Part shown: positions 17,764 through 31,008 of the stretch, one piece after another
How positions within the stretch are numbered: position 1 is the stretch's first letter
Layout of the letters: each line of letters begins with the position of its first letter
NCBI GenBank assembly: GCA_944390795.1
Contig: CALXRI010000014.1
Coordinates: forward strand, 1 to 64,000
Reading direction: 5' to 3'
Length of the DNA: 64,000 bases
DNA from: an uncultured Victivallales bacterium
Lineage (GTDB): Bacteria > Verrucomicrobiota > Lentisphaeria > Victivallales > UBA1829
The notes under the pieces: model-generated
Seen by the model: the letters and a program-made list of their open reading frames with translations, nothing else
Told to the model about the DNA's origin: nothing
The model's database searches: none
Translations under genes and position numbers: made by a program

Positions 17764-20700
17764 ATGAAGGTGTTGACGATGGGCGAAAGTTTTGAAGCGA
17801 GACTGATCAAATATTCTTCCAAGGACGTGTTCCGGAAAGCGAAACATATTCTGCATGCCGGTGAACTGCTCTGCTGTCACGAAACCGCGGCGAAAAGCCT
17901 GCGCGCCGTCTTCCGCGATGCAAAAGGTTCCGTGACCCGCGTCGAAGTCTCCGGTTTTCCTTCCGGTCCGTATACGGAAACCTGTTCGGCCTGTTCGGAT
18001 GTTTCCGCCGGTCTTTGTCCGCATGCGATGGCGGCATGTCTGTATCACGCGAAATACACCATAAAACGCAGGGAGGCGGCAAAGATCAAGGATGCGCCGG
18101 CCCAGTATGCGGGACTCAAATTTTCCGGAATGCCGGAATTGCTCAAGCAGGTGCTTGCCCCGCAGAAGGCCGCGGTCGTCATCACGGCGGAATCCGATTT
18201 TCCGCATGTCCCGAGCAAATGGGAGCGCACGCTCTTTTCCGTCTCGCTGAAAATGAACGGGCGCGACTACATCGGAAATCTGAACAATCTGCGGCAGCTT
18301 CACTTCGGCAAGAATCTGGCCGCCTCTCTCCAGCTTGACGCATTTCCTCTGCAGGACCGCCAGATCATCCGCTTTCTCGCGATCAACGCCCAGCAGGACG
18401 GCACGAAACTTTCGCTGGACGCCGAGCAGACAGCCGAATTCTTCCATTGTCTCGTGGGATTCCAGAACTTCATGCGCCTGAAGGAGAAGGTCGTGATTCA
18501 CCGGGAACTCGCCGAACCGGTCATCATTGTCGAACGTCTCAAAGGCGGAAGCCTGCTGCGTTCGGCGATCATTGTGAAGGACTCGCCGCTTCCTCTGAAG
18601 GATGTCAAGGTGATTACCGGACGCGCCGGATGCTGGGTGGGAATGCTCGGGGAATACTGGTGGATTCCCGCGCAGATGGATGTCGCATGGCTCCGCAACT
18701 TTCTGCGCACCACCGTGCAGCCGTGCGACTCGAAGGCGGCGGCGATGCTGATCAATTACCAGGCGATGCTGCCGTTCAAACTGATCGAAGCCGACGGGGT
18801 GAAGGTCCGCGAGAAGCGCCTCAAACCCTTCTACAACGCCGTCATGAAGAAAGACGGCGCGCTGGAAATGGAGGTCCTGTTCGATTACGACGGGCGGATC
18901 TGCAAGGGAGACCAGGCGCGTCTCGCCTCCCAGAACGGCGTGTTCTGGAGACGCAATACGACGGCGGAGAATTTCTATGTGCAGGAACTTGTGAATTTCG
19001 GATTTGAGATGATCTCCGGCGCGTCCTCTTCGGACGGCGAGACAAGACTGCGCCTGCGCGACCGCGAAGCCATCGGGGCGTTTGCCGAGGAGATGATTCC
19101 GCAGTGGCTGAACGCGGGCCGCGCATTCCTCCTCTCCTCCGATCTGGCGCGGATCTGCGGCGATTCCGGCAGACTCCGGATTTCCACCGAGGTCCTGGCG
19201 GAAACCGATGCGTGGTTTGACCTGTCCGTCAAGCTGACGGCGGCGGACAGTCCGTTTCCCTGGCGCGATCTTGTCTCCGCAGCGGGAAACAACGAGCTGT
19301 TTCTTTCCGGCGGGAAGAATTCCTTCATCAAAATACCGCCCGCTCTGCGGCGTCTTGCCTTCGGCGTTTGCGAAAGCGTTGTTCCGCAGAACCGTTCCGG
19401 CGCGGACGGGAGTGCAGCGGATGTTCTGCGGGTTCCGCGCTTTGCCGCACTCCACTGGGCGAAACTCGGCGCGGCGATTCCCGGAGCTGTTCCTGTGGAG
19501 TTTCTGCGTCTGAAGGTCGATGTCGACGGGATTGCGGATGACGCGGCCTCGGAAAACGCCGCGCTGGATCTTCCGCTTTTCACCGGGACCTTGCGCAAAT
19601 ACCAGGCTGCGGGTGTTCTCTGGATGAAAACCCTCGGGGCGCGCGGCTTCAATCTGATCCTCGCCGATGAAATGGGACTGGGAAAAACCGTTCAGACGCT
19701 TTCGCTTCTGGCATCCGATCCGGAAAAGCATCTGCCCGCCCTGATTCTCTGCCCGACCAGCCTGCTGGAAAACTGGGCGAGGGAGGCGGAGAAATTCGTT
19801 CCGACGCTGAAGACGCTTGTCATCTCGGGACCCGATCGCGGAAAACTCTGGGAGAACGCGCTGTTTCACGACATCTGCATCTGCTCGTACAGCATCGTCA
19901 AGCGGGACGTCGAACATGTGCGCGGGCTCCGTTTCAAATATCTGATTCTGGATGAGGCGCAGCACATCAAGAATCCTTCCACGGGAAATTCGCAGACCTG
20001 CAAATCCATCGAGGCGCAGCACAAGCTGGTGCTGACCGGCACGCCGCTGGAAAATTCGCCGGAGGACCTCTGGTCGATTTTCGATTTCCTGCATCAGGGC
20101 ATGTTCGGAACGCTGAACTCGTTCCGGAAAAAATATATCGGGCAGACCGCTTCGCCCGAGGCGATTCAGGATCTTTCCTCCCGGATCGCCCCGTTCATCC
20201 TGCGGCGCAGGAAAGCCGATGTCTACAAGGAGATTCCGCCGAAAGTCGAGCAGACGCTCTACTGCGAGATGGACGAATCCCAGCAGCGTGTCTATAATGC
20301 GTTTCTCGCCGAAGGGCGGCGCAAATGCGAGATTCTCAAATCGGGTTCGCATGAACTTTCCAAATTTGAAATTCTCTCCTCGCTGCTGCGTCTGCGGCAG
20401 GTCTGCTGCCATCCGGATCTGATCCCGGGGACTCTCCGCCCCGACGCCGGCCAGCCGGTGCGATCGGCCAAGATGGAACTGCTCAAGGAACTGCTGCTTG
20501 AAACCATTGACAGCGGTCACAAGGTTCTGCTGTTCAGCCAGTTCACTTCACTGCTCTCGATTGTGCGGTCCTGGCTGGATTCCGAATCGATCCGCTATGA
20601 GTATCTTGACGGCGCGACCACGGACCGCATGGCGCATGTGGACAATTTCAACAATTCGCCGGACATTCCGCTTTTCCTGCTGAGTCTGAAGGCGGGCGGT

Positions 20701-20973
20701 CTCGGGTTGAATCTGACGTCCGCGGACACGGTCATCATCTACGATCCCTGGTGGAATCCGGCGGCCGAGGCGCAGGCCGCGGACCGGACGCATCGGATCG
20801 GACAGACGAAAAGCGTGAACTGCATCAAGCTTCTGGTCAAGAATTCGATCGAGGAGAAGGTGCTGGAACTTCAGAGGATGAAGGCGGGTTTGTTCAACAA
20901 TCTGGTGGAGGCTCCGTCCGAGGCGATGCGCGGCATGAGCATGGAGGATTTCGAGTTCCTGCTCAAGGATTGA
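17764..20973 (+). CDS. SNF2-family ATPase with N-terminal SWIM zinc finger
   Basis: The 1069-residue protein has a SWIM zinc finger near residues 75-95 (ETCSACSDVSAGLCPHAMA, CxC then CxH), a long middle region, and a C-terminal SNF2 motor (about 600-1060). Motor motifs are DEMGLGKT, LILCPTSLL, DEAQHIKN, VLTGTPLEN, LFSQFTSLL, LKAGGLGLNL and RTHRIGQ. Such bacterial HepA/RapA-like proteins remodel DNA- or RNA-polymerase-bound complexes. The SWIM finger probably binds DNA or protein. Start ATG 17764 lacks a good ribosome site; ATG 17779 with GAAGG 8 bases upstream is equally likely. It stands alone, after a terminator. Confidence 0.92.
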   Translation: MKVLTMGESFEARLIKYSSKDVFRKAKHILHAGELLCCHETAAKSLRAVFRDAKGSVTRVEVSGFPSGPYTETCSACSDVSAGLCPHAMAACLYHAKYTIKRREAAKIKDAPAQYAGLKFSGMPELLKQVLAPQKAAVVITAESDFPHVPSKWERTLFSVSLKMNGRDYIGNLNNLRQLHFGKNLAASLQLDAFPLQDRQIIRFLAINAQQDGTKLSLDAEQTAEFFHCLVGFQNFMRLKEKVVIHRELAEPVIIVERLKGGSLLRSAIIVKDSPLPLKDVKVITGRAGCWVGMLGEYWWIPAQMDVAWLRNFLRTTVQPCDSKAAAMLINYQAMLPFKLIEADGVKVREKRLKPFYNAVMKKDGALEMEVLFDYDGRICKGDQARLASQNGVFWRRNTTAENFYVQELVNFGFEMISGASSSDGETRLRLRDREAIGAFAEEMIPQWLNAGRAFLLSSDLARICGDSGRLRISTEVLAETDAWFDLSVKLTAADSPFPWRDLVSAAGNNELFLSGGKNSFIKIPPALRRLAFGVCESVVPQNRSGADGSAADVLRVPRFAALHWAKLGAAIPGAVPVEFLRLKVDVDGIADDAASENAALDLPLFTGTLRKYQAAGVLWMKTLGARGFNLILADEMGLGKTVQTLSLLASDPEKHLPALILCPTSLLENWAREAEKFVPTLKTLVISGPDRGKLWENALFHDICICSYSIVKRDVEHVRGLRFKYLILDEAQHIKNPSTGNSQTCKSIEAQHKLVLTGTPLENSPEDLWSIFDFLHQGMFGTLNSFRKKYIGQTASPEAIQDLSSRIAPFILRRRKADVYKEIPPKVEQTLYCEMDESQQRVYNAFLAEGRRKCEILKSGSHELSKFEILSSLLRLRQVCCHPDLIPGTLRPDAGQPVRSAKMELLKELLLETIDSGHKVLLFSQFTSLLSIVRSWLDSESIRYEYLDGATTDRMAHVDNFNNSPDIPLFLLSLKAGGLGLNLTSADTVIIYDPWWNPAAEAQAADRTHRIGQTKSVNCIKLLVKNSIEEKVLELQRMKAGLFNNLVEAPSEAMRGMSMEDFEFLLKD

Positions 20974-23024: not shown

Positions 23025-23074
23025 TAAAAACAAACGGGGCCTTCCTTCTTTTCCGCAGAAGAAAAACCCCGTTT
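23025..23074 (-). terminator. Terminator of the hydrogenase operon
   Basis: On the minus strand, AAACGGGG (complement of 23067-23074) pairs with CCCCGTTT (complement of 23032-23039). Inner pairing TTCTTCT with AGAAG extends the stem. It ends in TTTGTTTTTATT. It lies 30 bases after the hydA stop. Confidence 0.8.
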
Positions 23075-23101: not shown

Positions 23102-24529
23102 TCAGATGCCTTTCTTGTCCGGATTGAATGCCTGGGTCAGCGAGCAGGGGCCGCCGGTGCATCCGCCGCAGCATGCCATGACTTCGAGGAAATTCCCCGG
23201 CAGCTTGCCCTTGCCGTAGAGCTGGAGCATCTTCACCGTCTTCGGCGTCAGTCCGTTGATGAACTTGACATCCGCCTTGAAGCCGCGCTTCGCCAGTTCC
23301 GGATGCGCTTCGAGCTCCTTGAGGATTGCATCCGTCACGCCGCAGCTCCTGGCAAAGTTTCTCGCCGTTGTGGCGGCGGGGCGCGGGATCGGCCATTCCG
23401 CCTGCGCCATGACGTCGATATTCATGGCGGCGAAGACGGTTCCGAGTTCCTCGAAGGTCATCACCCAGTCCACCTTGTCCGGATGGAGCGTCACTTCATA
23501 ACGTTTTGCGATGCACGGGCCGATGAAGACAATCTGCGCGTTCGGGTGCGCTTCACGGGCGATGTCCGCGGCGTAAAGCATCGGGCTCGGGGTGGAGGAA
23601 ACCATCGGAAGGAGCTCCGGCGCGTGCTTCTTTGCCGCCTCGACATAGGCCGTGCAGCACGAGGAAGTCACAAGCCTCTCCCCCGCGATCATTTTCTCCT
23701 GGAATTCCTCGGCCTCGTGCTCCGTGGTTTTTTCCGCGCCGAGCGCAACTTCAAGCACATCTTTGAAGCCGATCTTTGCCACGGCCGAGAAAAGCTGTCC
23801 GACCGTGCCGGGGAACTGGTCCTGGGCGGACGGCGCAATGATTGCCACGACTTCCTTTCCCTTGTGGAGCTCATTGAGAATGTTCAGCAGTTCGGAACGC
23901 TCCATGATCGCCGAGAAGGGGCAGTTGGAGAAGCATTTTCCGCAGAAGATGCATTTGTCGTAATCGATTTCGGCGATGCCTTCGGCATTTTTCTTGACCG
24001 CGCCGACCGGACAGGCGTCTTCGCAGGGAACCGCCGTCTTCGTAATCGCGTGGAACGGGCAGAGCGTCATGCACTTTCCGCAGCTGATGCACTTGGACTG
24101 ATTGATGACGGCATGCTGGTTTTCCACGCGGATCGCGCCGACCGGACAGTTGTAGAAGCACGGACGCGCAAAACATCCGCGGCAGTTGTCCGTGACGAAG
24201 TACTTCCGGTCCGGGCATCCGGAGCAGCCCGCTCCGCATGCCGTGATCGGTTTGTCTGGGCGTTTCTTTTCCGCAAGCGCGTCATCCAGATATTCCCGCA
24301 GGGTTTTGCTTTCATCCGTCTCGGACTCATAGGATGCGCCGAGCAGCGCCATGAGGCGGTATTTGATAATCGCGCGGTCCTTGTAGATGCAGCAGCGGAC
24401 GGAATCCGATCCCTTCGGACGGATCTCATAGGGTATCTTGTCAATATCTTTTTCGATCGTTCCCGCGAGGAAGCTTCTGATCAGGCGGATCATCAGCTCC
24501 CGGCGCATTCTCACGACGCCGTTGTTCAT
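23102..24529 (-). CDS. hydA: Monomeric [FeFe]-hydrogenase, group B-like, with ferredoxin domains
   Basis: The 475-residue protein starts with Cys-rich ferredoxin-type clusters (ACGAGCSGC; NCRGCFARPCFYNC; CISCGKCMTLC; CIFCGKCFSNC, about residues 95-210) and an H-cluster domain (about 225-465). The L1-L3 signatures read TSSCCTAY, FIGPCIAKRYE and EVMACCGGCTGGPC. All H-cluster Cys ligands are present, but the motifs differ from group A (TSCCPxW, MPCxxKxxE), so I assign group B. It would make or oxidise H2 with reduced ferredoxin. No NuoF-like flavoprotein is in the operon. ATG 24529 has AAAGG 8 bases upstream and overlaps the previous gene by four bases. Confidence 0.88.
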   Translation of the reverse strand: MNNGVVRMRRELMIRLIRSFLAGTIEKDIDKIPYEIRPKGSDSVRCCIYKDRAIIKYRLMALLGASYESETDESKTLREYLDDALAEKKRPDKPITACGAGCSGCPDRKYFVTDNCRGCFARPCFYNCPVGAIRVENQHAVINQSKCISCGKCMTLCPFHAITKTAVPCEDACPVGAVKKNAEGIAEIDYDKCIFCGKCFSNCPFSAIMERSELLNILNELHKGKEVVAIIAPSAQDQFPGTVGQLFSAVAKIGFKDVLEVALGAEKTTEHEAEEFQEKMIAGERLVTSSCCTAYVEAAKKHAPELLPMVSSTPSPMLYAADIAREAHPNAQIVFIGPCIAKRYEVTLHPDKVDWVMTFEELGTVFAAMNIDVMAQAEWPIPRPAATTARNFARSCGVTDAILKELEAHPELAKRGFKADVKFINGLTPKTVKMLQLYGKGKLPGNFLEVMACCGGCTGGPCSLTQAFNPDKKGI

Positions 24530-24798
24530 TGAACATGCCTTTCGAGTAAGTCATTGACTTTTTTGGAGATCAGGTCAACGGTCGCATCGCCGACGATTTC
24601 CCCGTTGATCCGCACAAAGGGCGCATGACTGTAATTGTCGTTCGTACAGACCTCCAGGCAGGGCATCGCAACAATTTCCACCTTGCCGATCCACGGAGCC
24701 GGCATGGATTTTTCCAGCGCCAGAAGGCTCTGCGCCCCCAGAAGGTAGCAGGTCGTTCCGCAGCAGATTTCAACTTTGATCATCCCTTGTTCGTTCAT
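24526..24798 (-). CDS. Thioredoxin-like [2Fe-2S] protein (NuoE/HydC-like) upstream of hydA
   Basis: The 90-residue protein has the four-Cys [2Fe-2S] pattern of the thioredoxin-like ferredoxin: VEICCGTTCYLLGA supplies two Cys and VAMPCLEVCTND supplies two more. This is the short C-terminal half of NuoE, without the N-terminal helical domain. It probably passes electrons to or from the adjacent HydA. ATG 24798 follows GGAGAG. It overlaps hydA by four bases and starts 28 bases after the phosphatase stop. A second such protein heads the operon at 28086. Confidence 0.85.
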   Translation of the reverse strand: MNEQGMIKVEICCGTTCYLLGAQSLLALEKSMPAPWIGKVEIVAMPCLEVCTNDNYSHAPFVRINGEIVGDATVDLISKKVNDLLERHVQ

Positions 24799-24826
24799 TG
24801 TTTTCTCTCCGTTTTCCTCTTTCAGG

Positions 24827-26020
24827 TTAAAAATAGCGAATAGTGACATTTTTCCGGTATTTGTTCTCCAGCGACGCCTGAAGACGCCTGATGACGTTCC
24901 GCCGCATCTCCAGGTCGACCGGCAGCGTCGGATCCTGATGCGCTTCGTTGATCTTCGTTCCGACAATGAACTCCACGATATCGCTGTCCATCATCAGGTT
25001 GACGATCTCCTTCGCAGCCGCGGCGGAATTCTGCCAGTCGCCGGACTCCAGATCGGCGGCGACCTGCGTGAGTGTCAGGATTCCCTCGGTCACCAGTCCC
25101 ACGCCGCGCATGTAGCCGGGCGGCGGCAGATTCCCGCTCCGGCTCACCATCTTGATGTCGATGTCCACGCGCGTCCGGAGCTCGCGCGAAACGATGTTCG
25201 CCGTGGTGCCGCCGCAGAGCACGACCTTTCCTTCCGGGAACACGGCCAGATTCGCATACTCCCGGTCGGTCTCCTTGCGGAACGGCGGACCCGTGATGAC
25301 ACGCAGAACGCGCGGATGACGCAGATAAAGCACCATGCAGGTGATATCGTCCATGCACTTGCGCTCCGGATTGATCGACATGGCTTCGGCGGCGATCACG
25401 GAAGCCAGGTCCCGCGCCGAAATTTCCGGATTCTTTTCCACGGTGCGCCTGATGAAATTGAATGCGCCTTCGCGCCTCCAGCCGAACTTCCAGCCGGGAC
25501 AGCCGAGTCCCGCCTGTGTGACGCCGTCGGAAAACGCGATCAGACGGTCGCCGGGCGCCATGGCGACTTCCGTAATCCGCATTTTGCGGTCCGGCCAGCG
25601 TTCGGACACCAGTTCCTTCACATTGTTTTTCGGCAGGTCGATCAGATTCCGCAGATGGATGAAGGGCGGATTGTCCATTTCCACGACGCGGGTCTTTCCG
25701 CCGAGCTGCATGTCGAACACCGTGAACGTCGCATAGCTGATCTTGCGGATTTCGCAGACCGGAAGCGAATCCATGATGATCTCGGCGGATTGCAGAATGT
25801 CCATGTTGGAACGCACAAACTCCAGCGCCATCGTGGAGGTCATGCTCGCCATCAGATTCGCCTTGATCCCGCTCCCGAGTCCGTCTGAAAGAACGGCGAT
25901 CGTGCGTTTTTCATTCGGAATTCTCACACAGCGGAAATCGTCGCCGCAGGCTGCCTGGCCGGTCTTGATCCACTGGCTGGCCTCCAGCTCGACGAAAAGC
26001 TTGTCATTTTCCATCGCCAT
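24827..26020 (-). CDS. SpoIIE-type PP2C serine phosphatase of the hydrogenase operon
   Basis: The 397-residue protein has the PP2C/SpoIIE motifs: AACGDDFRCVRI, VLSDGLGSGIKAN, LIAFSDGVTQAG and MDDITCMVL. These carry the metal-binding Asp residues of a Mn/Mg phosphatase. The catalytic part is about residues 10-235; the C-terminal 150 residues have no family I recognise. It would remove phosphate from Ser/Thr of a partner. ATG 26020 overlaps the 3' end of the HydS-like gene by 17 bases. Similar phosphatases sit beside sensory hydrogenases in Clostridia and Thermotogae, where an H2 signal is thought to be passed on. Confidence 0.87.
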   Translation of the reverse strand: MAMENDKLFVELEASQWIKTGQAACGDDFRCVRIPNEKRTIAVLSDGLGSGIKANLMASMTSTMALEFVRSNMDILQSAEIIMDSLPVCEIRKISYATFTVFDMQLGGKTRVVEMDNPPFIHLRNLIDLPKNNVKELVSERWPDRKMRITEVAMAPGDRLIAFSDGVTQAGLGCPGWKFGWRREGAFNFIRRTVEKNPEISARDLASVIAAEAMSINPERKCMDDITCMVLYLRHPRVLRVITGPPFRKETDREYANLAVFPEGKVVLCGGTTANIVSRELRTRVDIDIKMVSRSGNLPPPGYMRGVGLVTEGILTLTQVAADLESGDWQNSAAAAKEIVNLMMDSDIVEFIVGTKINEAHQDPTLPVDLEMRRNVIRRLQASLENKYRKNVTIRYF

Positions 26021-27728
26021 CTTTCTTGTCCTTGATTTCAGAATAACTTCCGGCGACTTCGCGGAGGATGATTTCCGTTTCCGCCATGTGTTCGCCGAGA
26101 TACTGCGCAATCTTCTGCACTGTCGTCACATTCTTCCGGATGACCTCGCGCGCCTTCTCCGCCACTTTCTCGCGATGAAGCTCGCTCTGCGTCACGTCCT
26201 GGATGACCGCTCCGACCGTGCGTCCCGTCGTGATGGAAAAGACGCTGATATTGAAGATGCGGTCGCCGTAAATCTGGTTGAAGCGTTCCAGATCGCCCGA
26301 TCCGCCCGCGAAGGCGCTTTCAAAGAGATCGGAGAACTCGATCAGGCTGCGGAGATCCGCGCCGGTCAGGTTGCCGCAGGAGTCGTAGGCCGCGAGCGCG
26401 TCCTCTCCGCACATCTTGGCGAAGTGGCGGTTGCACTCGATGATCTGGAGATTGTTGTCCACAATCACCACGGAAGCGGGGATGTATTTGATCAGCGCAT
26501 TGCTGGTCTTCTGCGAGATCGTGCGAAGGTACGAGAGGCACATCGAGGTTTCGGCCTTGCCGTCGATCATCGCGGCGGCGAATTCGCGGCAGCTGTTGTA
26601 GCCGCATCCGCCGCAGTTCAGTTCGTCGGCGGGCGAGTGTTTGCCGACGGTCTCGAGCGCGGCGACGATTTCCGCTTCGGTCGGAGTCTTCCGCACAGGA
26701 ACGTCCCGGTCTGGCTTCTCCTCCATTTCGACCTCTTTGGCGCGGCCGAGGCTTGAGGCGGAAGCGGCGATGTCCATTGTGTTCATCAGCGTTTCGAGAT
26801 CGGAGCCGTCCTCCGGCATCACGGGGCCGTTCACGCATCCCCCGGGGCAGGCGAGGCATTCAATGAAAATCTTCTTTCCTCCGTGCGCATTCAGCGGCGC
26901 GGAACCGGAAAAGAGCCGCCCGATGTTCGCCAGACCGGAGACCGCCACGTAGCGGATGCCGGGATCATTCCCGCGGAGCGTGTCATTCATGCCGCCTTCC
27001 AGGGAATAAGCGCGCCCCTCTTCGGCGGCTTTCGGCGCAAGAGGCGCATCCTCCACGGCGTCGAGGCGAATCTCCTTTTCCTCCAGCAGGCTCCGGAGCG
27101 ATTCGAACGTCACTGCGAGCGCAAGCACGTCCGGTGAACGGTCCGCCTCGTTCTTCTTCGCCGCGCAGGGACCGAAAAAGACCACCTTGATGTGATCTCC
27201 GTAGGTTTGCTTCAGGAGTTTTGCGTGCGCCATCACGGGAGATACCACCGGCACGATGCTGTCCGTGTATTCCGGCGCGTATTTCCGGATGTAGTCGACG
27301 GCGGCGGGACAGGCGCTCGAAATGAAAAGCTTGCGGTCGCTTTCCCGGACGATCCGCCCGGTTTCCGCGCTGACGAGCTCCGCACCCAGCGCGGTTTCGG
27401 AAACCCCGGCGAATCCGAGCTTCCGGAGCGCTCCGGCAAGGCGGTTGATTGAAACATCCTTGAAGTATCCGATGAAACTCGGGGCGACGGACGCGTAGAG
27501 CTCTTCCCCGTTTTCCAGGAGAAAACGGAGGCGGCTCAGGTCGGAACGGATTTTTTTTGCATGCGCGGGGCAGACTTTCACGCAGGTTCCGCAGCAGACG
27601 CAGAGTTCCGGAATGACCGCCGCGCGCGCGTTGACGATCCGGATCGCCTTGCAGTGGCAGTGCCGGACGCATTTGTAACAGTCCTGGCACTCGTTGTCCG
27701 TCGTGAATACGGGAAAATTATGATTCAT
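26004..27728 (-). CDS. HydS-like sensory [FeFe]-hydrogenase with [4Fe-4S] and PAS domains
   Basis: The 574-residue protein has, in order, a 2x[4Fe-4S] ferredoxin (CQDCYKCVRHC, CVCCGTCVKVC), an [FeFe]-hydrogenase domain (about 70-330), a CGGCGYNSC-type FeS domain (about 370-410), a PAS domain (about 415-515) and a C-terminal helical tail. The L1 motif is ISSACPAAV, with Ala where the catalytic enzymes carry the proton-relay Cys. Others read FFGPCAAKKNEA and IECLACPGGC. Ala at that site is known in sensory group C hydrogenases such as TmHydS. This one should therefore sense H2 or redox state rather than turn over fast. ATG 27728 has GGAGAG upstream. Confidence 0.87.
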   Translation of the reverse strand: MNHNFPVFTTDNECQDCYKCVRHCHCKAIRIVNARAAVIPELCVCCGTCVKVCPAHAKKIRSDLSRLRFLLENGEELYASVAPSFIGYFKDVSINRLAGALRKLGFAGVSETALGAELVSAETGRIVRESDRKLFISSACPAAVDYIRKYAPEYTDSIVPVVSPVMAHAKLLKQTYGDHIKVVFFGPCAAKKNEADRSPDVLALAVTFESLRSLLEEKEIRLDAVEDAPLAPKAAEEGRAYSLEGGMNDTLRGNDPGIRYVAVSGLANIGRLFSGSAPLNAHGGKKIFIECLACPGGCVNGPVMPEDGSDLETLMNTMDIAASASSLGRAKEVEMEEKPDRDVPVRKTPTEAEIVAALETVGKHSPADELNCGGCGYNSCREFAAAMIDGKAETSMCLSYLRTISQKTSNALIKYIPASVVIVDNNLQIIECNRHFAKMCGEDALAAYDSCGNLTGADLRSLIEFSDLFESAFAGGSGDLERFNQIYGDRIFNISVFSITTGRTVGAVIQDVTQSELHREKVAEKAREVIRKNVTTVQKIAQYLGEHMAETEIILREVAGSYSEIKDKKDGDGK

Positions 27729-27822
27729 GATTCTCTCCATTTCCTTGCCGCCGGAGTTTCGGAAACGGATTTTTCATCCCCCTCCGGGGCTGCCGTCCCC
27801 GCACGAACGGTGCGGCAGGCTG

Positions 27823-28086
27823 TTATTTGAGTTTTTTCGGCGGAAGCGTCTGGCGGAGCAGATCCAGCATCAGTCCGGTGTCGACCTTCGTATAGACGCG
27901 GTCGTCGATCACGACGATCGGGCCGTCGGCGCAGCGCCCCTGACAGAGCGAGCCGGAGAGATCCACGTCAACTTCGTCCCTGTAGCCGTTCTCCTCCAGA
28001 TATTTTTCCGCAGTCTCGACATTTTTCGTGTTCCCGCGCGAAAAGCACGAGCTTCCGATGCAAATCACAATTTTCGGTTTCGCCAT
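27823..28086 (-). CDS. Thioredoxin-like [2Fe-2S] ferredoxin, first gene of the hydrogenase operon
   Basis: The 87-residue protein has IVICIGSSCFSRGN and DLSGSLCQGRCADGPIV, four Cys of a thioredoxin-like [2Fe-2S] ferredoxin (NuoE-like). It opens the operon that continues with the HydS-like sensor about 95 bases downstream. It may carry electrons to the sensor or the hydrogenase. Upstream is the adhE terminator; only about 100 bases separate it from adhE on the same strand. Confidence 0.85.
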   Translation of the reverse strand: MAKPKIVICIGSSCFSRGNTKNVETAEKYLEENGYRDEVDVDLSGSLCQGRCADGPIVVIDDRVYTKVDTGLMLDLLRQTLPPKKLK

Positions 28087-28109: not shown

Positions 28110-28157
28110 CAAAAAAGAAAAAAGCATTGCAGCATCCTTTTCATAAGATACTGCAAT
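28110..28157 (-). terminator. Strong adhE terminator before the hydrogenase operon
   Basis: On the minus strand, ATTGCAGTATC (complement of 28147-28157) pairs with GATGCTGCAAT (complement of 28126-28136) with one mismatch and a 10-base loop. It is followed by GCTTTTTTTCTTTTTT. It sits 30 bases after the adhE stop, between adhE and the ferredoxin gene on the same strand. Confidence 0.85.
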
Positions 28158-28186
28158 ACTTTCAAGTTTCAAACTCGGTTCAGAGT

Positions 28187-30826
28187 TTATTTCCCATAAT
28201 ATGCATCAAGATACATCTGCTTGATCTCGGTAATCAGCGGATAGCGGGGGTTCGCCGTGGTGCACTGGTCGTCGAACGCCTTTTCGCTGAGGGTGTCGAT
28301 CACGGCGAGGAAATCCTTTTCCGGCACGCCGGCTTCCTTGATGGACTTCGGAATGCCGACTTTCGCCTTCAGATCCTCGATCGCGGCGATCAGTTTCTCG
28401 ACCTTTTCATCCGCCGTGGTTCCGCCGAGCTTGAGGTAATCGGCGATCTGCGCGTATCTCTCCTTCGCATGCGGATGGTCATACTGCGGGAAGGTGCCCT
28501 GCTTGACCGGTTTTTCCGTCGCGTTGTAGCGGATCACGTAGCTGATGAGCAGCGCGTTCGCCAGTCCGTGCGGGACGTGGAATTCGCCGCCGAGCTTGTG
28601 CGCCATGGAGTGGCAGACGCCGAGGAAGGCGTTGGCGAACGCCATGCCGGCCATCGCGGAGGCGTGGTGCATCTGCTCTCTTGCGCGAAGGTCGCGCGGA
28701 CCGTTGGAGTAGGCGATCGGCAGATACTTGAAGACGAGACGGGCCGCTTCCAGCGCGATGCCGTCGGTGAATTCCGTGGCGAGCACCGAGACGCGGGCTT
28801 CCAGAGCATGAACCAGCGCGTCGATCCCGGAATACGCCGTGAGGCGCGGCGGCATGCCCATGACAAGGCGGGTGTCGATGACCGCCATGCTCGGGGTCAG
28901 CTCATAGTCCGCCAGCGGATACTTGTTGCCGGTGGTCTCGTCGGTGATTACCGCGAACGGCGTCACTTCCGAACCGGTTCCGGAGGTGGTCGGAATGCAG
29001 ACGAGTTCCGCCTTGGCTCCGAGTTTCGGGAACTTGAAGATGCGCTTGCGGATGTCCATGAAACGCATGGCCATGTCCTCGAACTTGATTTCGGGATGCT
29101 CATACATCAGCCACATGATTTTCGCGGCGTCCATCGGGGATCCGCCGCCGATCGCGATGATGAGATCGGGCTTGAAGGTGTTCATGCGGTCCACGCCCTT
29201 TCTGGCGGTTCCGAGGGTCGGATCGGGCAGGACTTCCGCGAAGATGTCGGCCTGGATCCCCAGCGCCTCCAGATACTCCAGGGGTTCCTTGAGAACGCCG
29301 CTGTTGAAGAGGAAGCCGTCGGTCACGATGAACGCGCGCTTCTTGCCCTCGAGTTCCGTGAAGGCTTCCTTCATGCAGCCGTATTTGAAGAAGATTTTCG
29401 GGGGCACTCTGAACCAAAGCATGTTTTCTCTCCGCTGTGCAATAGATTTGATGTTGAGCAGGTGTTTCGGGCCGACGTTTCCGCTGACGGAGTTTTCACC
29501 CCAGGAGCCGCAGCCGAGCGTCAGGGAGGGCTCAAGCTTGAAGTTGAAGATGTCGCCGATCGCGCCCTGGCTGGACGGCATGTTGATCAGGGTGCGGCAG
29601 CTCTTCATCAGATGTCCGAACTTCTGGATGCGTTCGACATTGGTTTTTTTCGTGTAAAGCACGCTGGTGTGGCCGAGACCGCCGAAATTCAGGAGGGCGC
29701 GCGCATTCTCAAGCGCGGATTCGAAGTCCTTCGCCTTGTAGAGCGCCAGAACAGGGGAGAGCTTTTCGCGCGAGAACGGGTAATCCGGCCCCACTCCTTC
29801 TGTTTCCGCGATCAGCACCTTGGTGCGCTCGGGCACCTTGACGCCGGCCATCGCGGCGATTTTGCTGGCAGGCTGTCCGACGATTGCGGCATTGAGTCTG
29901 CCGTTGACAAAGATTGTCGCGCCGACCTTTTTGCTTTCCTCCGGTTTGAGAACGTAGGCGCCGCGCTTGACGAATTCGGCCTTGACCTCCTCATAGACCT
30001 CCTCGACCACCGTGACGGACTGTTCCGAAGCGCAGATCATGCCGTTGTCGAAAGTCTTGCTCTGGAGCACCGAGCTGACCGCCAGTTCAATATTGCAGGT
30101 TTCGTCCATGATGACAGGCGTATTGCCCGGTCCGACGCCCAGCGCCGGAATTCCGCTGGAATAGGCCGCCTTCACCATGCCCGGACCGCCTGTGGCGAGA
30201 ATCACGTTGACGTCGGGATGGCTCATCAGGCGCTGGCTCAGCGCCACGGTCGGTTCCTCGATCCAGCCGATGATGCCTTCTGGAGCGCCCGCCTTGACCG
30301 CCGCGTCCAGCACGAGCTTCGCAGCCGCGATCGTGCACTTCTTGGCACGCGGATGCGGGCTGAATATGATGCCGTTCCGGGTCTTGAGCGCAATCAGGGA
30401 TTTGAAGATCGCCGTCGAGGTCGGATTCGTCGTCGGAATGATTCCGGCGATCAGTCCGAGCGGTTCGGCCACGGTGTCCATGCCGAGCGCCTGATCGTGC
30501 TCCAGAATGCCGCAGGTTTTCATGTCGCGATATTTATGGTAGATGTATTCGGAGGCAAAATGATTTTTGATGACCTTGTCCTCGACCACGCCCATTCCGG
30601 TCTCCTCGACCGCCATCTTCGCCAGTTCAATCCGGGCGTTGTTCGCCGCCAGGGCGCCGGCGCGGAAGATCGCGTCAACCTGTTCCTGCGTGAATTCGGC
30701 AAATTTGCGCTGGGCTTCCTTCACGGTCTCGATGGTCTTGTCGAGCTCCGCAAGCTGCTGTGCTTCGAGTTCTTCCTTTGTCGGGGCCGGTTTTTCCGCT
30801 TTCACTGCTGCCTTGGTTTTTCTCAT
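28187..30826 (-). CDS. adhE: Bifunctional aldehyde/alcohol dehydrogenase AdhE
   Basis: The 879-residue protein has the normal AdhE length and fusion. The N-terminal CoA-acylating aldehyde dehydrogenase (about 40-450) has catalytic Cys in NGMICASEQS and ATGGPGMVKAAYSSG. The C-terminal iron alcohol dehydrogenase (about 480-870) has IAIGGGSPMDAAK, the iron-binding DALVHALEA and later GVCHSMAHKLGG. It reduces acetyl-CoA to ethanol and regenerates two NAD+, the main electron sink in fermentation. ATG 30826 has GGGAG 10 bases upstream. An extra Lys/Pro-rich N-terminal tail of about 20 residues precedes the domain. Two Rex-like sites upstream suggest NADH control. Confidence 0.95.
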   Translation of the reverse strand: MRKTKAAVKAEKPAPTKEELEAQQLAELDKTIETVKEAQRKFAEFTQEQVDAIFRAGALAANNARIELAKMAVEETGMGVVEDKVIKNHFASEYIYHKYRDMKTCGILEHDQALGMDTVAEPLGLIAGIIPTTNPTSTAIFKSLIALKTRNGIIFSPHPRAKKCTIAAAKLVLDAAVKAGAPEGIIGWIEEPTVALSQRLMSHPDVNVILATGGPGMVKAAYSSGIPALGVGPGNTPVIMDETCNIELAVSSVLQSKTFDNGMICASEQSVTVVEEVYEEVKAEFVKRGAYVLKPEESKKVGATIFVNGRLNAAIVGQPASKIAAMAGVKVPERTKVLIAETEGVGPDYPFSREKLSPVLALYKAKDFESALENARALLNFGGLGHTSVLYTKKTNVERIQKFGHLMKSCRTLINMPSSQGAIGDIFNFKLEPSLTLGCGSWGENSVSGNVGPKHLLNIKSIAQRRENMLWFRVPPKIFFKYGCMKEAFTELEGKKRAFIVTDGFLFNSGVLKEPLEYLEALGIQADIFAEVLPDPTLGTARKGVDRMNTFKPDLIIAIGGGSPMDAAKIMWLMYEHPEIKFEDMAMRFMDIRKRIFKFPKLGAKAELVCIPTTSGTGSEVTPFAVITDETTGNKYPLADYELTPSMAVIDTRLVMGMPPRLTAYSGIDALVHALEARVSVLATEFTDGIALEAARLVFKYLPIAYSNGPRDLRAREQMHHASAMAGMAFANAFLGVCHSMAHKLGGEFHVPHGLANALLISYVIRYNATEKPVKQGTFPQYDHPHAKERYAQIADYLKLGGTTADEKVEKLIAAIEDLKAKVGIPKSIKEAGVPEKDFLAVIDTLSEKAFDDQCTTANPRYPLITEIKQMYLDAYYGK

Positions 30827-30948
30827 AAGTAAGCACTCCCTTCCATTTTTGAACCCTGTCTTCTCCGGACCTTCCGGAAAGGAAAGAGCTGTTTTTCCTT
30901 TTTTGTTCCATTTAAAATACAACGATTCAAAAAATTTTCAAGACAGTA

Positions 30949-30966
30949 TTGTGATTTTTTTAACAA
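30949..30966. promoter_or_regulatory. Candidate Rex operator 1 upstream of adhE
   Basis: TTGTGA-TTTTTT-TAACAA matches the Rex pattern TTGTGAA-N4-TTCACAA at 12 of 14 conserved positions. Rex represses fermentation genes when NADH is low. It lies about 120 bases before the adhE start and just downstream of a TTTCAC/TAATAT promoter candidate on the minus strand (30971-30998). Confidence 0.55.
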
Positions 30967-30990: not shown

Positions 30991-31008
30991 TTGTGAAATA
31001 TTAAACAG
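30991..31008. promoter_or_regulatory. Candidate Rex operator 2 upstream of adhE
   Basis: TTGTGAA-ATAT-TAAACAG has a perfect left half and four of seven matches in the right half. It starts 42 bases from operator 1, about four helical turns, so two dimers could lie on the same face. It overlaps the putative -35 box. The rest of 30827-31136 (310 bases) is AT-rich, with no gene. Confidence 0.35.

Follow-up and report, generated by a model that had tools for sequence, protein, structure and literature searches.

A probable hydrogen-responsive redox-control operon with a sensory [FeFe]-hydrogenase and a SpoIIE-like phosphatase in an uncultured Victivallales bacterium

Background

The hfsABCD genes of Thermoanaerobacterium saccharolyticum encode, among others, a PAS-bearing sensory hydrogenase of the HydS type (HfsB), a serine phosphatase (HfsC) and a group B hydrogenase (HfsD) (PMC11837493, PMC8924675). 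Deletion of hfsB in this organism increased both the hydrogenase activity and the adhE transcript (PMC5707799). A cluster in Ruminococcus albus encoding HydS, a phosphatase, a hydrogenase and AdhE was expressed 111-fold lower in co-culture with an H2 consumer, at low H2, and H2 sensing by way of the PAS domain and the phosphatase was already proposed by the authors of that study (PMC6776011). With these papers on hfsABCD and on the R. albus cluster, the idea of an H2-sensing operon has already been published for Clostridia. The HydS of Thermotoga maritima (TmHydS) was found to have low activity (PMC10055695).

Here, a five-gene cluster was analyzed in a 64 kb stretch of DNA (the window) that is part of a draft assembly of 3.44 Mb in 66 contigs. 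The closest named records were from uncultured Victivallales and Lentisphaeria bacteria, and the phosphatase of one of these loci (L052) was 99% identical to that of the window.

Gene organization

The cluster is located on the minus strand, from 28086 to 23102 (Table 1). The five genes, their coordinates and a 17-base overlap between the HydS stop (26004) and the phosphatase ATG (26020), as described in the original prediction, were all borne out by open reading frames and Pfam. An alternative in-frame phosphatase ATG is found six bases further on and would reduce the overlap to 11 bases. The stop of the second [2Fe-2S] gene overlaps the start of the hydrogenase gene by 4 bases; the PF01257 match of the encoded [2Fe-2S] protein, 23.4 bits, was just below the cut-off of 24.8. 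The same gene order was present in dozens of relatives, which places the cluster far beyond chance. Absent from the original prediction were the AdhE gene directly upstream, the group B identity of the catalytic hydrogenase and a second module elsewhere in the genome. Downstream of the cluster, at 17764-20973 on the plus strand, a large SNF2-type helicase-like gene was recognized from its motifs by eye.

Table 1. Features of the hydrogenase cluster and its upstream region (positions in the window)
Feature	Position	Strand	Properties
Small [2Fe-2S] thioredoxin-like protein	27823..28086	-	87 aa; PF01257 2e-9; Cys 9, 14, 48, 52
HydS, sensory-type [FeFe]-hydrogenase	26004..27728	-	574 aa; PF02906 1.5e-46, PF04060 1.3e-10, PAS_8 2e-4
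SpoIIE/PP2C-type Ser/Thr phosphatase	24827..26020	-	397 aa; SpoIIE PF07228 4.4e-13
Second small [2Fe-2S] thioredoxin-like protein	24526..24798	-	90 aa; PF01257 5.9e-5; Cys 13, 17, 47, 51
Group B monomeric [FeFe]-hydrogenase, catalytic	23102..24529	-	475 aa; PF02906 9e-50; TIGR04105 2.3e-151
AdhE, bifunctional acetaldehyde-CoA/alcohol dehydrogenase	28187..30832	-	881 aa from this start; NF010378 1422 bits, cut-off 951
Intrinsic-terminator-like hairpin, gap between AdhE and hydrogenase cluster	28120..28163	-	19 pairs, then T-run
Terminator-like hairpin 3' of cluster	23032..23074	-	18 pairs, then T-run
Rex-operator-like site TTGTTAAAAAAATCACAA, upstream of adhE	30949..30966	-	1-2 mismatches to Rex consensus
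Second Rex-operator-like site CTGTTTAATATTTCACAA, upstream of adhE	30991..31008	-	Rex consensus search; same-genus conservation

Sensory hydrogenase

HydS consists of two [4Fe-4S] sites, an H-domain, an extra [4Fe-4S] domain, a PAS domain (residues 419-511) and a helix (513-569). All H-cluster ligand cysteines (C140, C188, C294 and C298) and the K358-equivalent lysine are kept. The alanine that had been read at the proton-relay cysteine of the sensor (SSACP) was confirmed as A139, and in a residue survey alanine occupied this position in 72 of 72 HydS sequences; 30 of 31 group B enzymes and all 21 group A enzymes had cysteine there. The M497-equivalent was leucine in 71 of 72 HydS and methionine in nearly all group A and B enzymes. 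The extra [4Fe-4S] site is C372-x2-C-x4-C-x16-C397, and the Cx2Cx4Cx16C motif was invariant among relatives. The PAS_8 match scored 21.6 bits, just below the cut-off of 21.8. An AlphaFold model of HydS (mean pLDDT 84) gave a PAS-like fold, with the strands and helices of 419-511 in PAS-like order, and then a single helix at 513-569; this PAS and C-terminal helix part was modelled with moderate confidence, about 67-78. The C-terminal helix is strongly conserved, with many invariant residues.

An H-domain tree was built from 124 sequences, comprising HydS, group A and group B enzymes. All PAS-type HydS, including that of the window, were found on one side of a branch with a support of 100, outside group A (support 99) and group B (support 96). 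The tree search was quick and some branches are long, and the deep order within HydS is therefore not relied on. The predicted division into a sensory and a catalytic enzyme was upheld by this tree: since HydS lies outside group A, the 574-residue protein is not among the enzymes whose company had been named as evidence against a sensor. Motifs and tree position support the assignment of the window HydS as a sensory-type [FeFe]-hydrogenase, separate from the catalytic groups. By its PAS domain, HydS is tentatively placed in group C and not in group D.

Catalytic hydrogenase

The 475-residue hydrogenase matched TIGR04105, the model for monomeric group B enzymes, with 504.6 bits over residues 3-466 (cut-off 450). 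Its score against the group A model TIGR02512 was 132.7 bits, below the cut-off of 405.95. In the H-domain tree it was located inside group B, with the support given above and with group A separate. Both cysteines, relay and ligand, had been predicted to be kept (SSCCTAY), and were found in the motif TSSCCTAY; the relay, the ligands and the M497-equivalent are kept in the group. Profile score and tree position place the catalytic enzyme in the monomeric group B and not in group A. The maturase HydF is present in the genome. Most group B genes over the cut-off in a phylum sample, compared by hand, were situated within about 1 kb of a phosphatase gene.

Purified group B enzymes reoxidise ferredoxin (PMC12578642) and ferredoxin is therefore, by analogy, the likely partner of the window hydrogenase. 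Ferredoxin and not NADH had also been named in the original prediction, on the grounds that NuoF was missing. The partner stands, but the reason needs correction, as the absence of NuoF beside the hydrogenase is expected for a group B enzyme. No NuoF gene was found within the 64 kb window. NuoF was indeed encoded elsewhere in the genome, as had been considered, by three genes, each in a NuoE-NuoF-HydA operon with its own group A enzyme.

Phosphatase

Residues ~1-235 of the phosphatase form a PP2C domain like that of SpoIIE (Foldseek match to the SpoIIE phosphatase domain 5mqh, 6.7e-13), and D27, D46, D165, D224 and D225 were conserved in at least 99% of 99 sequences. The catalytic domain begins near residue 1 and is without an N-terminal regulatory region, for which reason the HydS helix is suggested to fill that role. 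RsbP is a PAS-helix-PP2C protein in which the PAS-linker regulates the phosphatase domain. In 78 of 83 loci the phosphatase gene directly followed that of HydS. Genes fusing HydS to the phosphatase were not found; long open frames in G213, G017 and G313 were rejected as fusions, each being two genes in different reading frames.

The remainder of the phosphatase, residues 238-397 (24827-25306), forms a second alpha/beta domain with the near-invariant motifs GGT, TEG and NEAHQDP (mean pLDDT of the whole model 89). A Pfam search with this domain gave no match above cut-off and a PDB sequence search gave nothing significant, and the matches listed in a structure search with the whole phosphatase were to PP2C only. 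In 41 genomes of the order, fragments apart, the domain was present only in open frames about as long as the phosphatase or longer, and in the genomes searched it was confined to SpoIIE phosphatases linked to hydrogenases. Precisely two copies are present in the window genome, one in each module.

Two module types among relatives

The gene neighborhood was surveyed in 99 loci, 80 from named genomes plus others, with a few records present twice. A type 1 module had the order [AdhE], [2Fe-2S], HydS, phosphatase, [2Fe-2S], group B hydrogenase, the AdhE gene being variable. A type 2 module had the order Rex, [2Fe-2S], HydS, phosphatase, NuoE, NuoF, group A HydA. A group B gene downstream was combined with Rex upstream in one locus (L084), and the two occurred separately in 26 and 19 loci (Fisher p 4e-5, shared ancestry ignored), and group B and NuoF downstream never occurred together (0/30; p 5e-6, shared ancestry likewise ignored). 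The two module types, one with a group B output and one with Rex and a bifurcating hydrogenase output, are largely exclusive; about 19 loci fit neither. Of 80 relatives, 63 had the first [2Fe-2S] gene upstream of that for HydS. The second accompanied the group B gene in 32 of 33 relatives and was missing from all 44 that lacked a group B gene. In one genus (G017, G026, G041, G044, G062 and G077), unlike most of the phylum, the group B gene was on another contig than the HydS-phosphatase module.

The second module of the window genome, at 3168-7008 of contig C23 (L007), consists of Rex, [2Fe-2S], HydS2 and phosphatase 2, and no hydrogenase gene lies directly downstream. In the same genome, the NuoE-NuoF-HydA set that best matched type 2 was detached, on contig C11.

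AdhE, Rex sites and terminators

AdhE was encoded upstream of 12 of the 18 group B-type clusters with enough flank. With up to 3 mismatches allowed, the whole window contained just two matches to the Rex consensus TTGTTAA-N4-TTAACAA, against 0.46 expected by chance. Both were upstream of adhE, with starts 42 bases apart. The 18 bases at 30949..30966 were identical in the window, L052, L053 and L054, with flanks that differ, and the site at 30991..31008 was nearly identical in same-genus loci, with small changes amid diverged flanks. Outside the genus, Rex-like sites upstream of adhE were weaker or absent. A Rex-family gene (PF06971, PF02629) is located on C23; upstream of this second-module rex gene, no Rex-like site was found at up to 4 mismatches. 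Rex, responding to NADH/NAD+, probably acts on adhE in parallel through these putative operators.

The hairpin at 28120..28163 was conserved in three loci of the genus, and some other genera had hairpins with T-runs at the corresponding position. As adhE is set apart from the cluster by this strong terminator, conserved in the genus, the two are probably separate units or are joined by read-through, and co-transcription is not assured. A promoter-like TTGAAA-N16-TATCTT (28120-28172) overlaps the left arm of the hairpin, and the cluster may therefore start inside the adhE terminator.

Discussion

The genes and domains, the intact phosphatase and H-cluster residues, the tree position, the conserved linkage and the Rex-like sites described above are most readily understood as an hfs-type, H2-responsive redox-control operon, in which HydS and the phosphatase probably adjust the group B hydrogenase and the ethanol-making AdhE to the H2 level. 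The group B hydrogenase would release the electrons of reduced ferredoxin in the form of H2. HydS would be a slow hydrogenase which reports H2, the presumed signal, or the redox poise of the H-cluster, and would not be a bulk H2 maker. The state of its H-cluster would be passed through the extra [4Fe-4S] domain and the PAS domain to the long C-terminal helix. By a postulated contact, this helix would control the PP2C phosphatase, as in an RsbP divided over two proteins, and the phosphatase would dephosphorylate some Ser/Thr protein and in this way adjust the group B hydrogenase and the neighboring AdhE, with Rex (NADH/NAD+) acting on adhE in parallel. The apparent sign of the effect conflicts between the two model species: the R. 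albus data point to activation at high H2, whereas the hfsB deletion in T. saccharolyticum raised hydrogenase activity and adhE transcript (PMC5707799).

The tight gene packing, the 4 bases shared by the second [2Fe-2S] gene and the hydrogenase gene and the tracking of the group B gene by this [2Fe-2S] gene in 32 of 33 loci would also fit a multi-subunit metabolic hydrogenase made of HydS, the [2Fe-2S] proteins and HydA, with an incidental phosphatase. This is very unlikely, given the relay alanine in every HydS sampled, the PAS domain and signalling helix in HydS, the many loci in which a HydS-phosphatase pair is found without any group B gene, and the description of group B enzymes as monomeric (TIGR04105 title; PMC12578642). 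A sensor of the general redox state, reading reduced ferredoxin through the N-terminal clusters and not H2 itself, is somewhat less improbable. Little or no variation was seen in the two N-terminal [4Fe-4S] sites and the extra [4Fe-4S] domain, all of which could exchange electrons with ferredoxin, but HydS has kept the four H-cluster ligand cysteines and the K358-equivalent lysine, which would be needless in a plain ferredoxin sensor.

The original prediction that H2 sensing leads to Ser/Thr dephosphorylation is consistent with the intact catalytic aspartates; no putative target was linked in the operon. A search of the genome for STAS or HPr-like targets, as had been proposed, gave one STAS gene beside one RsbW-like gene on contig C10, and two HPr proteins. 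These HPr proteins and the 14 Hanks-type kinase domains of the genome cannot be ranked as phosphatase partners. SpoIIE-family phosphatases typically act on STAS proteins. As a special case of the hfs-type operon, the phosphatase could thus act on the single STAS protein in a partner switch with the adjoining, likewise single, RsbW-like ATPase, leading to a sigma factor or similar output. This is unlikely, since the STAS/RsbW-like pair is unlinked to the hydrogenase cluster and could equally well be partnered by a GAF-SpoIIE phosphatase on C8, and since a profile search of the phylum sample detected no STAS match in 14 of 99 module-bearing genomes (divergent STAS domains may escape) and no RsbW-like match in some. 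The 14 genomes (G017, G026, G044, G062, G077, G138, G154, G159, G183, G184, G213, G333, G359 and G381) were compiled by hand, nine listed without a match and five missing from the match list; six of them are from one genus and 92-95% complete. STAS was accordingly rejected as the general phosphatase target or requirement, to the extent that divergent domains were not missed. DRTGG or RsbW-like genes are neighbors of clostridial clusters. Neither was among the recurrent neighbors in 82 loci clustered here, a set with no clostridial locus and, with shadow frames polluting the clusters, not exhaustive.

Returning to the hfs-type operon, a tentative extension, possible although doubtful, is that Victivallales and relatives have two parallel H2-sensing HydS-phosphatase circuits, group B/AdhE and Rex/bifurcating, both working through the C-terminal domain of the phosphatase on a non-STAS target. 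With two types of HydS-phosphatase module in one genome, group B and bifurcating outputs can be compared within a single organism. The HydS helix and the phosphatase as a conserved pair, the novel phosphatase domain and the genomes in which no STAS protein was detected narrow the search for the route of the H2 signal from sensory [FeFe]-hydrogenases.

Compared by published descriptions, the cluster has HydS, phosphatase and group B hydrogenase in the same order as hfsABCD, which is genetically tied to an adhE output. It differs from hfsABCD in the small [2Fe-2S] gene before the group B gene, AdhE upstream, the Victivallales host and the second module. The eight-gene cluster of R. albus 7 (PMC6776011) likewise encodes a PAS-bearing HydS, a putative Ser/Thr phosphatase, a ferredoxin-only hydrogenase and a bifunctional alcohol/aldehyde dehydrogenase. 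The catalytic enzyme was called group A1 there and is group B here, and expression was measured there, whereas the window is known from sequence. TmHydS (PMC10055695) resembles the window HydS in having an H-domain with PAS and the relay alanine, but its M497-equivalent is serine and not leucine. The group D enzyme TamHydS of Thermoanaerobacter mathranii (PMC6984386, PMC11803613) shares the Cx2Cx4Cx16C [4Fe-4S] motif, the relay alanine and leucine at the M497-equivalent; it is without a PAS domain, and its M353-equivalent is serine, compared to glycine in the window HydS. BfuT of Hydrogenedentota, a PAS-bearing C3 sensor, adjoins the bifurcating BfuABC, like the type 2 module, and the words SpoIIE and Rex are absent from the text of the paper (PMC11406978). 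Judged by the papers searched, what is new here is the host lineage, the division into two module types, the connection with Rex and the C-terminal phosphatase domain.
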